64,000 nucleotides of DNA. Source: a virus. Below are positions 1 to 64,000 of the stretch, one piece after another. Each line of letters begins with the position of its first letter. The first letter of the stretch is position 1. A program made the translations under genes and the position numbers. The stretch lies in IMG/VR virus record IMGVR_UViG_3300047470_000115, positions 1 to 64,000 of that record; one strand, written 5' to 3'. Below the pieces are notes generated by a model that worked only from the letters and a program-made list of their open reading frames with translations, had not been told where the DNA came from and did not search any database.

Positions 1-27
1 CGTTCCGCGCAGCCTGATACCCCCTCC

Positions 28-43
28 GCTACCTCTAGGTAGC
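28..43. repeat. Inverted repeat left of the early-operon terminator
   Basis: Perfect 7-bp arms GCTACCT (28-34) and AGGTAGC (37-43) around a 2-bp centre. It lies in the 97-bp stretch between the window edge and the terminator at 98-148, in which I see no open gene. It could be an operator for a gene further left. Only the symmetry is observed. Confidence 0.35.
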
Positions 44-97
44 CAGTTGTATCGCAGGAAAGTCGTCCGGCCGACACTCCACCTGCGACGCGAGGGG

Positions 98-148
98 AAA
101 GAGCGAAGGCCCGACACCTAGCCTGCTGGTGTCGGGCCTTCGCTCTTT
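98..148. terminator. Strong bidirectional hairpin terminator
   Basis: A perfect 21-bp stem: arms 98-118 and 128-148, 9-nt loop. The left arm begins AAAGAGCG and the right arm ends CGCTCTTT, so a U-run follows the stem on the plus strand and an equivalent one on the minus strand. It closes the minus-strand operon that starts at about 7091, just after the stop codon at 156. Confidence 0.85.
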
Positions 149-155
149 TGTGAAG

Positions 156-569
156 TTACTCTCTGCCGGATGCTTTGATCGCCTTGTTGAGCTCCACGAG
201 TCGAGCGTCCCACCATCGCGAAAGACTTACACCTAGCGGTGGCGGTCCTGCTTTCACCCACTCGTCGCGGAGTTCCACAACGGGATCTTTCGCCCCTCCT
301 TTGCCCATGACATCCCTGAAGAGCGAGTTGAGCTCGGGGGCGGTGTCGGCGATGACTTCTTCGATGGACCGAGTCTCTGGTTCTCGAACCTTGTACTCGC
401 CAGCCTCGATCGCCTTCTTCATGCGGCGAAAGGCTGCACGCTTGTCTCGCGCACTTCCGAGATTGATGCCGAAATCATTCGCGAGAATGTTCGCCTCCTG
501 CAAGCTGACGAACTCTGTGATTTCGCCAGACTTGATCGCCTGTGCGATCTCTTCGAGTGATCGTGGCAT
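156..569 (-). CDS. Unknown phage protein, last gene of left early operon
   Basis: 137 residues, mostly helical and charged, no recognised domain. The start is placed at the ATG at 569, which overlaps the stop of the gene before it (TGATG) and has GGAGG just upstream. A GTG reading 15 nt further out is possible but would overlap more. The N-terminal half (MPRSLEEIAQAI...) looks like a small helical domain with several Lys/Arg after residue 45. It ends 8 nt before the terminator at 98-148, so it is the last gene of its transcript. Function unknown. Confidence 0.75.
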   Translation of the reverse strand: MPRSLEEIAQAIKSGEITEFVSLQEANILANDFGINLGSARDKRAAFRRMKKAIEAGEYKVREPETRSIEEVIADTAPELNSLFRDVMGKGGAKDPVVELRDEWVKAGPPPLGVSLSRWWDARLVELNKAIKASGRE

Positions 570-54160: not shown

Positions 54161-54664
54161 CTACGCCGACCGCTGAAGCGAGGCCGCCTCGATGCGCGCC
54201 CTCACGTCGGGCGACACGCCCTGAAGTGCGTTGGACGACTTGGTGTTGCTACCCGAGTCGTTGTGGTCGTGCGCGAGGGGCTCGTGGTCGATCTTCTCAT
54301 GCTCGACCAGTGCCGCCTCGTCACTCATGCCGTTCACCTTGTCGAGCGACCAGCCGTGAGCGTCGGCAAGGTGGCGCCGCACCGTGGCCGCCTTGGCGGG
54401 GTGCAGGCTACGCTTGCTGACGAGACGAAGGCGTGTCTCGGTGGCCTCGAACCCGAGGATGTTCCCGCCCTCCACGAGGATGGGAACTCCGCGACCTCGC
54501 GGATTGAAGAACACCAGAGGGTCCTTGATGTTGACCTTGAGATTCTTGATCTCCCCCGTCTTGGAGACCTCTTCGTCGTCCTCGATGTATCGAAGAGTGA
54601 TGGTCTTGCCGACGTAGGGGACCAGCTGCTCAAGGTCGAACGATGTCTGAGTGTCGCCAGGCAT
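54161..54664 (-). CDS. Unknown His-rich protein, single-gene unit
   Basis: 167 residues, ATG with GAGGAG upstream. Residues 10-75 are beta-rich (KTITLRYIEDDEEVSKTGEI, FNPRGRGVPILVEGG), perhaps an SH3-like domain. Residues 90-140 contain LADAHGWSLDKV and SDEAALVEHEKIDHEPLAHDH, a His-rich helical motif also seen in other actinophage proteins that could bind metal. It has its own promoter, operators and terminator, so its dose is strictly controlled. Function unknown. Confidence 0.75.
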   Translation of the reverse strand: MPGDTQTSFDLEQLVPYVGKTITLRYIEDDEEVSKTGEIKNLKVNIKDPLVFFNPRGRGVPILVEGGNILGFEATETRLRLVSKRSLHPAKAATVRRHLADAHGWSLDKVNGMSDEAALVEHEKIDHEPLAHDHNDSGSNTKSSNALQGVSPDVRARIEAASLQRSA

Positions 54665-54730: not shown

Positions 54731-54819
54731 CCGCCGTTACCGCTAGTATGCATATTACCGGAACACACCGCACTCAGCAAGCGAAATAAAACGGGGTGTT
54801 GCGGGTACGGTAACGGCGG
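54731..54819. repeat. Widely spaced 12-bp inverted repeat around a promoter
   Basis: CCGCCGTTACCG at 54731-54742 and its exact complement CGGTAACGGCGG at 54808-54819, 65 bp apart. They bracket the promoter at 54752-54780: one lies just after the transcription start, the other upstream of the -35 box. Confidence 0.7.
54752..54780 (-). promoter_or_regulatory. Sigma70 promoter of the 54161 gene
   Basis: Minus strand TTGCTG (54780-54775), 17-bp spacer, TAATAT (54757-54752); start at about 54745. The downstream repeat copy (54731-54742) covers about +4 to +15, ideal for repression. Confidence 0.75.
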
Positions 54820-61636: not shown

Positions 61637-62095
61637 CTAGGAGCCCAGACGTTTGATCTGTTCCTTGCGTGCAGTGTTCATCATGGGGTGTCGAGACGAC
61701 CCAGGCCGGTGACACATCTCCTCATGGGCGATGCGTTCCATTACCTCGTCGGGAGACTCGACACGACCCCGGTGAATCTCTTCCACCGGCCTGTCAGTGT
61801 CAGTCAGAGCCGACGTGTCGTTTACGACACTCCAGGTCTCTACGACCTTCGTCAGCATCACGGCACGAATACCCTCGCGGGCGAGGATGCGACCCCGCCG
61901 AGTGCGAGTGAACTCTTTTACCGTGAACACCAACTTAATGAGTGTCGGTGTGGCGATCACGCGCGCCAGGGTATCCTCCCTGACTTCGCTACGCTCCGCG
62001 TGAACCAGGATGCCAGTATCAGTCCGAACTCGACCAATGACTTGCATGGGAGTGAGGTTGTCAACGCCCCCGTACTGCAGCTGCCCAGTTTTCAA
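61637..62095 (-). CDS. Unknown basic protein
   Basis: 152 residues from a TTG at 62095 overlapping the previous stop (TTGA); GGGGGTAG lies upstream. A beta-rich N-terminus (IGRVRTDTGILVHAERSEV) and an Arg/His-rich C-terminal half, with VMERIAHEEMCHRPGSS. Basic, perhaps nucleic-acid-binding. Family unknown. Confidence 0.65.
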   Translation of the reverse strand: MKTGQLQYGGVDNLTPMQVIGRVRTDTGILVHAERSEVREDTLARVIATPTLIKLVFTVKEFTRTRRGRILAREGIRAVMLTKVVETWSVVNDTSALTDTDRPVEEIHRGRVESPDEVMERIAHEEMCHRPGSSRHPMMNTARKEQIKRLGS

Positions 62096-62379
62096 CTCTG
62101 CTCTACCCCCACCAACTTGTCGAAGCAGTCGCCAGGCTCAGCCGTGACAATTCCGTGGGAAGTGCCACTCTGACCATGGATCGTAACACGGATGCGGCAT
62201 TTGGGCCGCTTCCTAGCACGCATCGACGACCCGGGGGAATGCAGGGTCACGGGCCCAACTGTCGCAATCGAACCGTCAGGCATGACGATCTGATCGGTTG
62301 CGACGAGCTGGACTGCAGCTATCGGTTCGGTTCTCACTCCCTCCGCCTGTTCGACACTCATGTTGCGCTTATCACTCAT
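62092..62379 (-). CDS. Unknown small protein
   Basis: 95 residues from the ATG at 62379 (GGGGAG upstream). Beta-rich, with an ATDQIVMPDGSIATVGPV barrel-like stretch and the basic RARKRPKCRIRVTI. It follows the operator region at 62521-62602, so this is probably its main product. Function unknown. Confidence 0.68.
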   Translation of the reverse strand: MSDKRNMSVEQAEGVRTEPIAAVQLVATDQIVMPDGSIATVGPVTLHSPGSSMRARKRPKCRIRVTIHGQSGTSHGIVTAEPGDCFDKLVGVEQS

Positions 62380-62520
62380 TCGCTGCTCCCCAGGTGGAGA
62401 TCCGAATACAACGAAGAGACCTGCTGTACGGCTTGCGACCGTATACCTCAACAAGTCAGGACCACCACCCAGTATAGGAAACGCGGCGCAGCGTGCGCAT
62501 ACTGGGGGGTGGACCTCACT

Positions 62521-62543
62521 TGATCGAGTACTCGACTCGATCA
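62521..62543. repeat. 9-bp inverted repeat downstream of promoter start
   Basis: TGATCGAGT (62521-62529) and ACTCGATCA (62535-62543), 5-bp spacer. It lies 5-27 bp after the transcription start of the promoter at 62555-62584, in a good place for repression or a leader hairpin. Confidence 0.62.
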
Positions 62544-62554
62544 TGGTGATACCG

Positions 62555-62584
62555 ATTCTAGCACTACGTGCCCCCAACCGTCAA
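62555..62584 (-). promoter_or_regulatory. Sigma70 promoter flanked by dyads
   Basis: Minus strand TTGACG (62584-62579), 18-bp spacer, TAGAAT (62560-62555), start at about 62548. It lies between the small gene at 62631 and the gene at 62092-62379. Confidence 0.77.
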
Positions 62585-62586
62585 CA

Positions 62587-62602
62587 GTTAGGGTACCCTA
62601 AC
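62587..62602. repeat. 16-bp perfect palindrome upstream of promoter
   Basis: GTTAGGGTACCCTAAC, a perfect 16-bp palindrome two bases upstream of the -35 box. A symmetric dimeric regulator is the natural ligand. The pair with the repeat at 62521-62543 brackets the promoter. Confidence 0.68.
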
Positions 62603-62630
62603 CTAGCGCTGACGATTTGTCGACATGTCG

Positions 62631-62789
62631 CTACTCGCCCGGAGTGGCCATACTCAGATCAAGTTTGGCGCGGATGTTGTGATAGTTGGTCTCGTCACTC
62701 TCCGACCAGTCGCCGTCGTCAGAGTACTTCTGGCGGTGCGCGTCAAGCGCCTCCAGGACCAACGCATACTCGCCTTCAGTGAATTGCAT
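62631..62789 (-). CDS. 52-residue protein
   Basis: MQFTEGEYALVLEALDAH at the start, an acidic loop, then LDLSMATPGE at the end. The ATG at 62789 has GGGGAAGG upstream, and the stop lies 29 bp before the palindrome at 62587-62602. Helical. Too short for size-filtered gene finding, but the ribosome site and codon pattern support it. It is the first coding region downstream of the candidate RNA at 62811. Function unknown. Confidence 0.7.
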   Translation of the reverse strand: MQFTEGEYALVLEALDAHRQKYSDDGDWSESDETNYHNIRAKLDLSMATPGE

Positions 62790-62810
62790 ACTTGACCTTC
62801 CCCGGTAAGT

Positions 62811-62931
62811 AAAAACAAGGCGCTAGGGCGCTGCGCCGCAACCCAGAACTCAGGGCCACCCGAGTCTGGTTACCGGTCCAACCCGTTCAGGAAGACCGTG
62901 CGGCGCAGCTTCCTAGCGCCTTGTGTTTCGT
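62811..62931 (-). ncRNA. Candidate folded non-coding RNA (about 120 nt)
   Basis: Minus-strand transcript from about 62931 to the U-run at 62815-62811. The ends pair: 62912-62924 with 62815-62827 (13 bp), a 2x2 mismatch, then 62899-62909 with 62830-62840 (11 bp). The closed interior holds two more hairpins: 62894-62898 with 62874-62878, and 62862-62869 with 62843-62851 (one bulge). The stem is followed directly by UUUUU. It has its own promoter at 62938-62966. No protein start is inside. The whole folds as a three-way junction; function unknown. Confidence 0.68.
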
Positions 62932-62937
62932 TGCCCG

Positions 62938-62966
62938 ATGATAACACGGGTGATCGCATCACACAA
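62938..62966 (-). promoter_or_regulatory. Sigma70-type promoter of the candidate RNA
   Basis: Minus strand TTGTGT (62966-62961), 17-bp spacer, TATCAT (62943-62938), start at about 62931, a few bases before the first paired base of the RNA. The context GTTATCATCGG matches the promoter at 7238-7267. Confidence 0.68.
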
Positions 62967-62969
62967 CCC

Positions 62970-63019
62970 CCAACAAGTACTGAATCCCCCCGCATCTTGC
63001 TCTCGGGGGGATTCAGTAC
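62970..63019 (-). terminator. Terminator after the 63038 gene
   Basis: Perfect 16-bp arms (63004-63019 and 62977-62992), 11-nt loop, then TTGTTGG on the minus strand. It isolates the following RNA unit from read-through. Confidence 0.82.
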
Positions 63020-63037
63020 CGGGCTGGGAGACCCGCG

Positions 63038-64000
63038 TCAGGCAGTCCGACGCGCACCCTTCTTGCCCTCCGGCGAGTCCTCGGCCGTGACACCCTCGAT
63101 GTTCGGGATGGTGCTGGGGCCGCCGGACGACGGGAACAGGCGGGCGCTGACGGCACCGGCCGAGGGCGGGTTCTTGCCCTCGTACTCCTTCGACGGGAAC
63201 TTCGAGATCCAGGCGATGGCCTTGAACTCGCCGACCGGCACGTCAGCCATGGCCTCGGCGACGTGCTTGCCGATGTCACCCTGGGCACCACCCGGGACGC
63301 GCGGACGACTGCCGCCACCCGCCGAGGCGCGGCGCCGGGCACCGGCCGCCTTGCCGTCGGCCGCCTTGAAGGCGCGCTTCACGTACTCGGGCACCTCGGG
63401 CTCGTCGCCCCGGTTCTCGGTGTCCGTGTTCCGGTACCACTCGGCGTACGCCTCGAAGGACTTGTGCTCGTTGGTCTCCGGGTCCTGGTACGCGTTGACC
63501 AGGGCGTGGATCGACTCGCCCGCCTTCTCCTTGTCGACCTCGTCCGCGATCGGCAGCGCCATGGTGGCGAGCGACAGGGACAGGAACTGGTCGACGTACG
63601 CCTCGGTCGGGTCGACCTTCGCCGCCGTCGCGGTGGCGCGGGTCGCCGTGGCCGCCTTCTTGGTCTCGTTGACCAGGAGGTTGTACGACTTGGCGCGCAT
63701 GATCGAGTCGTACATCGTGTCTTCGCCCTCGTCGTCCAGGAGCTCCTGGACCTTGCCCGTCAGCATCGGGCGGGCCTTGCGCTTCTCGCTGGCGTCGAGC
63801 TTGCGGTACGCCTCGCCGAACTTGGCGATGAGGGCCTCGGGGAGGGAGCCGGTCTGCTTGTCGCGACCCTCGTCCTCCATGATCTCGGCGCACAGCTTCA
63901 TCAGGTCGGCGACCGGGTCGGCCTCGGGCTCGGTGGTCGCGTCCGCCTCGGCGGGCGCGTCGCCCTCGGAAGCCTGGGCCTCGCCGGTCGCCTCGGTGAC
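63038..64000 (-). CDS. Abundant-type unknown protein, 5' end beyond window
   Basis: Open from the right edge to 63038; no start is forced before 64000 (an internal ATG exists at 63901 but the reading frame stays open to the edge, with Glu/Ala/Asp-rich sequence). At least 320 residues. Central region helical (YDSIMRAKSYNLLVNETKKA); the C-terminal 90 residues include VAEAMADVPVGEFKAIAWISKFPSKEYEG then SAGAVSARLFP, a small DNA-binding-like domain found in actinophages. Codon use is far more G/C-biased than its neighbours, as in the capsid and tube genes, so it is likely made in large amounts. Confidence 0.75.
   Translation of the reverse strand, partial: VTEATGEAQASEGDAPAEADATTEPEADPVADLMKLCAEIMEDEGRDKQTGSLPEALIAKFGEAYRKLDASEKRKARPMLTGKVQELLDDEGEDTMYDSIMRAKSYNLLVNETKKAATATRATATAAKVDPTEAYVDQFLSLSLATMALPIADEVDKEKAGESIHALVNAYQDPETNEHKSFEAYAEWYRNTDTENRGDEPEVPEYVKRAFKAADGKAAGARRRASAGGGSRPRVPGGAQGDIGKHVAEAMADVPVGEFKAIAWISKFPSKEYEGKNPPSAGAVSARLFPSSGGPSTIPNIEGVTAEDSPEGKKGARRTA

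Follow-up and report, generated by a model that had tools for sequence, protein, structure and literature searches.

The phage locus and its minus-strand RNA

The record studied here is a 79,487-base virus contig from an actinobacterial phage, and the window, that is, the whole stretch of DNA that was analysed, covers 64,000 nucleotides of it. The ATPase and phrog_6708 proteins match those of Gordonia, Tsukamurella and Rhodococcus phages at ∼30-40% identity and, judging from these proteins, the phage is a distant relative of them. In the relatives the same gene order is kept, in which phrog_6708 and a DUF6011 protein are separated by a variable stretch and followed by the ATPase and then CobT. 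The phrog_6708 gene, which is also matched by an A2 profile (G000:63044-64027, E 2.6e-114), is the host gene of an RNA hotspot, and a closed RNA lies 3' of it. A terminase-like gene, which was assigned from its conservation and position alone, is found near 9-11 kb, ∼50 kb from this RNA. The features of the locus are the following:

63038..64000, minus strand: 3' part of the phrog_6708 gene, which extends past the window edge (PHROG match, 1.9e-35)
62976..63020, minus strand: long hairpin immediately downstream of the phrog_6708 gene (16 Watson-Crick and 1 G-U pairs, 11-nt loop, without U-run)
62961..62966, minus strand: weak −35-like box TTGTGT (sequence and promoter scoring)
62938..62943, minus strand: weak −10-like box TATCAT (sequence and promoter scoring)
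62811..62931, minus strand: self-closing structured RNA, whole unit (folding, window stability scan and flank test)
62912..62924, minus strand: outer stem, 5' arm, 13 nt (folding)
62899..62909, minus strand: inner stem, 5' arm, 11 nt (folding)
62874..62898, minus strand: enclosed hairpin 1 (folding)
62843..62869, minus strand: enclosed hairpin 2 (folding)
62830..62840, minus strand: inner stem, 3' arm, 11 nt (folding)
62815..62827, minus strand: outer stem, 3' arm, 13 nt (folding)
62811..62815, minus strand: U-run (UUUUU) at the RNA 3' end, last base 62811 (sequence)
62631..62789, minus strand: small downstream ORF of 52 amino acids, with the ribosome-binding site GGGGAAGG at 62803-62796; no homologue of it was found

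A preliminary description of this DNA had proposed that a compact phage RNA, encoded on the minus strand, folds end to end, with 13 and 11 bp separated by a 2x2 mismatch, two hairpins and a final UUUUU. Folding reproduced all these elements, and the unit has the same direction as the operon. The two ends of the segment 62811-62931 (minus strand) pair to each other, the outer stem being formed by 62924-62912 with 62827-62815 (13 of 13 pairs Watson-Crick) and separated from the inner one by the mismatch AA/GC at 62911-62910/62829-62828. The minimum free energy of the unit is −78.1 kcal/mol, compared with −45.5 ± 4.0 for shuffled sequences (z −8.3), and none of 200 shuffles was equally stable. 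When up to 370 nt of flanking sequence are included, stem pair probabilities stay at ∼0.9-1.0, only the innermost pair being lower, at 0.75. Among 130-nt pieces of the 64-kb window, the unit ranks second in stability, surpassed only by a strong hairpin towards the left end, and its outer stem is one of only three perfect inverted repeats in the window with arms of at least 12 bp at this spacing. The complement of the unit folds less well than the sense strand (−73.0 versus −78.1) and with fewer G-U pairs (1 versus 3), a mild sign of selection on the RNA. The minus strand almost certainly encodes a compact RNA that is predicted to fold shut on itself. The CTAG contained in the outer stem was considered as a motif and dropped, 99 CTAG being observed in comparison with 101 expected.

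As a predicted fold the RNA is real, and it is a member of no curated family, as the preliminary description had supposed. Rfam 15 gave no match at the gathering threshold anywhere in the window, and at E values up to 5 the region 62700-63040 attracted sub-threshold microRNA models only. In the window, the Pistol model (RF02679) found no match even at E up to 5, ARAGORN predicted no tRNA, and our T-arm script detected nothing at the site. A blastn search of the RNA against 50,697 phage records was also without match. A single-protein scan with the ATPase recovered no close relatives of the phage, nor did a scan of genome contigs. The terminase-like relatives are at best ∼62% identical, and a close homologue of the window RNA was consequently not obtained. 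We also scanned viral contigs for the outer-stem pattern GCGCTAGG-N60-90-CCTAGCGC, which occurred in 75 of them, not above chance expectation. Its best-folding match (L094) belongs to a contig of the same clade, G010, the only one of 50 checked pattern contigs to carry the ATPase of the clade, and it comes after the hairpin behind a second, weak phrog_6708-like copy. Since this match was chosen for its fold and its interior is unlike that of the window RNA, it is evidence for position and form and not for homology in sequence. No description of the site was found in the open-access literature.

Promoter-like boxes and the upstream hairpin

The preliminary description also regarded the unit as autonomous, provided with its own promoter and isolated from the preceding gene by a terminator with a 16-bp stem. 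The boxes TTGTGT-N17-TATCAT are indeed present with the spacing and at the positions proposed. Their strength is low, with a score of 8/12 that is reached by 54 minus-strand sites in the window; the chance of such a site is P = 0.09 anywhere in the 112-nt gap and 0.01 at this exact place. A consensus scanner detected neither promoter nor terminator at the unit, its terminator search covering loops of 3-8 nt only. The unit does end in U5, yet its stem closes 84 nt, unlike a rho-independent terminator, in which the U-run comes after a short G+C-rich hairpin. As to the upstream terminator, the strong stem was found (62976-63020), but it lacks a U-run; transcription need not end there, and its designation as a terminator was an assumption.

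About 40 nt, including the promoter-like boxes, separate this hairpin from the closed RNA, and several relatives have no room for such boxes. In some syntenic relatives (the second copy of G010, Kvothe, Woes) the equivalent RNA starts 0-15 nt past the hairpin, and in others it comes behind a Pistol ribozyme; the Pistol elements of the relatives must sit on the transcript of the upstream gene. The weakness of the promoter, the absence of a U-run upstream and the lack of promoter room in several relatives thus leave the autonomy of the unit unsupported. The promoter-like segment was also tried as a ribozyme or other fold and rejected: its 50-nt fold is unremarkable (z −0.7), and none of the ribozyme models matched it.

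The equivalent site in related phages

A hairpin of at least 12 bp is present within 110 nt of the phrog_6708 stop in 19 of 21 relatives. The same feature was seen after the ATPase in 2 of 27 cases, after CobT in 1 of 22, after DUF6011 in 0 of 8 and in 16 of 540 random pieces. The elements that adjoin this hairpin, or that constitute it, vary. A Pistol ribozyme (RF02679) starts no more than ∼70 nt from the phrog_6708 stop in six phages (TIN3, TIN2, GTE7, GMA7, Amore2 and L016). tRNA-like elements, defined as a T-arm (5 bp, TTCRANN loop) stacked on an acceptor stem of 5-7 bp, occur in Woes, Kvothe, ASerpRocky, Katyusha, Demosthenes, ReqiDocB7, L020, G001 and the second copy of L014. Closed RNAs occupy the site in TIN2, TIN3, L012, L013, G003 and both copies of G010, whereas in Monty, Chelms, PokyPuppy and SteveFrench the hairpin is present with nothing evident behind it. 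These element types were partly assigned by eye; the strict T-arm count was scripted and yielded 9 T-arms on the sense strand of 13.5 kb of hotspot, 0 on the antisense strand and 14 in 424 kb elsewhere, that is, a 20-fold higher density at the hotspot, on the sense strand only. The enrichment of long inverted repeats by themselves at the site is only ∼3-fold (0.31 versus 0.11 per kb), so the case rests on the hairpins, the T-arms and Pistol.

The arrangement in the window has counterparts. The second copy of G010 follows the same order, with a 16-bp hairpin at +19..53 and then a 21-bp closing repeat at +64..179. TIN2 and TIN3 share a hairpin, a closed RNA, a ribosome-binding site and a small ORF in this order, and TIN3 and GTE7 have a closed RNA just ahead of a small ORF. 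When the TIN2 and TIN3 RNAs were compared, a comparison of two sequences only with the pairs laid out by eye, 20 of 25 stem positions were paired in both, with four double compensatory changes and one single change, and four positions were broken in one phage. This compensation concerns the RNA of TIN2 and TIN3 at the equivalent site only, the window RNA having no blastn homologue with which to compare it. Taken together, the window RNA is one occupant of an RNA hotspot and not alone, and the site looks like a swap-in place for RNA-processing or decoy RNAs and not like a lone promoter-driven small-RNA gene.

Individual relatives showed further arrangements. In G002 (L173, G002:61400-63400), a bare tRNA-like minihelix of acceptor and T-arm, GCCTGGG-TGGGG-TTCGATT-CCCTG-CCCAGGC, with nothing between its arms, is located directly past the phrog_6708 stop. 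Three self-closing RNAs, one with the 13 + 11 bp plan of the window RNA, follow phrog_6708 in tandem in G003 (L174, G003:3200-5000, positions 146-1031), with a sub-threshold Pistol match (32.1 bits) behind them. After phrog_6708 in G001 (L172, G001:71900-73216, positions 365-574), a tRNA-like element precedes a tRNA (43.3 bits) whose middle is interrupted by an insert of ∼50 nt. L013, L014 and G010 each have two phrog_6708-like genes, with a hairpin behind every copy. The record of a related phage, Gordonia phage Kampe (L125, 1684-2211), has a tmRNA annotated beside a tRNA-Leu in the corresponding arm. Finally, the segments L016:450-1900 and L005:2507-3618 are non-coding stretches of 1.1-1.4 kb that may be involved in replication or packaging; they are rich in repeats, both direct and inverted (AGGGAGAC, TAGGCCTAG, CTAGTACCAC).

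Possible functions of the closed RNA

We tentatively propose, with somewhat less than even confidence, that phrog_6708 is followed by a conserved RNA-processing site, which in this phage is occupied by the unit and would serve to process the upstream mRNA. The phrog_6708 gene and the downstream elements would be transcribed together, and the hairpin 62976-63020 would become the protected 3' end of the phrog_6708 mRNA. The next element would act as a cleavage module, which in the relatives would be either Pistol, through self-cleavage, or a T-arm/acceptor element serving as RNase P substrate; the acceptor/T-arm minihelix is the classic minimal substrate of this enzyme. In the window, the module would be the duplex of 13 + 11 bp with its 2x2 loop, long enough for RNase III, and cleavage would detach the small downstream ORF from the upstream mRNA and free a compact stable RNA. 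The analysis establishes the predicted fold, the conservation of the site and its hairpin, and the occurrence of ribozymes and tRNA-like elements at it; the co-transcription in this phage, the cleavage by RNase III and the role in forming an mRNA 3' end are steps that we infer. A typical RNase III signal is an intercistronic duplex of at least ∼20 bp, in many cases broken by an internal loop; the 13 + 11 bp found here between two cistrons, with pair probabilities near 1, are of this size. Against the processing reading, the window RNA has neither a ribozyme nor a T-arm, promoter-like boxes lie in the ∼40 nt ahead of it, and some relatives show nothing evident behind their hairpin. Moreover, the elements of different phages have no sequence in common, so that assigning one function to all of them is a unifying guess. 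A broader proposal, which we consider rather doubtful, is that a large clade of actinobacterial phages keeps at a fixed site a constant hairpin and an exchangeable RNA-cutting module (Pistol, an RNase P-type minihelix or an RNase III-type duplex), so that the 3' end of one mRNA is made by different mechanisms, the window carrying the duplex version.

Other explanations have to be weighed against the processing reading. The preliminary description had suggested that short end-to-end folded phage RNAs may bind host RNA polymerase, ribosomes or defence proteins. An autonomous phage small RNA, with a sigma-A type promoter of its own and a U-run end, that targets RNA or protein of host or phage in trans is unlikely in our view. 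The bounded 121-nt unit (z −8.3) ending in U5 would suit it, and TATCAT fits a common −10 form at a spacing of 17 (P about 0.01 at this place). However, the promoter reaches 8/12 only, like 54 sites on the strand, it escaped the consensus scanner, as did any terminator, and the equivalents in relatives have no room for a promoter or lie behind a ribozyme. The rapid turnover of content at one fixed site between conserved genes, the many tRNA-like occupants without a normal anticodon arm and the three closed RNAs in a row in G003 would instead agree with a hypervariable anti-defence cassette, in which self-closing and tRNA-like RNAs serve as nuclease-resistant decoys for RNA-sensing or RNA-cutting defence proteins, such as tRNA-cutting toxins. 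This leaves the Pistol ribozymes and the constant hairpin unexplained, and we consider it distinctly unlikely.

The position of the RNA end, 8 nt ahead of a good ribosome-binding site (62803-62796) and its ORF, raises the question of whether the RNA serves the 52-aa ORF as its leader or attenuator, with the closed stem and U5 acting as a conditional terminator or a ribosome-access switch; the closed RNAs of TIN3 and GTE7 are likewise placed just before a small ORF. We give this little credence, as no homologue of the small ORF was found, the loop closed by a terminator stem is normally short and not of 84 nt, and no competing fold is evident. It is also quite improbable that the structure works at the DNA level, as a protein-binding palindrome, a cruciform or what is left of a small inverted-repeat element. 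Such a role would agree with the purely Watson-Crick stems and with the good folding of both strands (−78.1 and −73.0), but the unit is single-copy in the 79,487-base genome, its own arms aside, the sense strand folds better, with 3 versus 1 G-U pairs, and the T-arms of the relatives are on the sense strand only.

If the processing reading is correct and the site is a hotspot of 3'-end processing, one clade would naturally contain several ways of solving a single problem, by ribozyme, RNase P or RNase III, that can replace each other, and small phage ribozymes such as Pistol, which mostly lack a testable biological role, would gain one. If the RNAs are decoys, the site would be an RNA-only counter-defence locus. 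Cultured phages of Gordonia and Tsukamurella with this site would allow both readings to be tested.

Several known systems resemble the locus in part. The association of the Pistol ribozyme (RF02679) with phages is known (PMC4604425). In six relatives, Pistol is found at the syntenic position directly 3' of phrog_6708; the window RNA differs in being a predicted three-way closed fold without the Pistol consensus (P1-P2-P3, P1 loop pseudoknot and conserved core). HDV-like theta ribozymes are located 3' of phage tRNA genes, where trimming of the trailer has been proposed (PMC10879173). The likeness lies in self-cleaving and tRNA-related RNAs that would serve processing in phages, but at the present site ribozyme, tRNA-like element and closed RNA mostly replace each other after a protein gene. 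The RNase III signals of T7 early mRNA are single hairpins. As in T7, an intercistronic duplex of ∼24 bp broken by an internal loop lies in a phage operon; however, the window duplex closes a three-way fold and its RNase III site is putative. Other end-closed RNAs include the phi29 pRNA, a 120-nt phage RNA with two arms, and the regulatory RNAs 6S and Ms1. Unlike pRNA, the unit is not beside packaging genes and matches no Rfam model, and it has two hairpins where 6S has a central bubble. RAGATH and similar candidates are structured phage RNAs without an established function that are found near small ribozymes; the window RNA resembles them in being a structured phage RNA in such company, and no RAGATH family of Rfam matches the window region.

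Two other structured segments were noted on the minus strand of the window. At 54731-54819, a second self-closing segment, with a 12-bp closing stem around 65 nt, starts 5 nt past the stop of the CobT-like gene (54824), ahead of the gene 54161-54664; structure at the matching site of the relatives is inconsistent. At 62386-62610, a promoter-like TTGACG-N18-TAGAAT (10/12, with TG before the −10) lies behind the 16-bp palindrome GTTAGGGTACCCTAAC; downstream of it, a structured leader (∼170 nt, z −3.7) precedes the gene 62095-62385.
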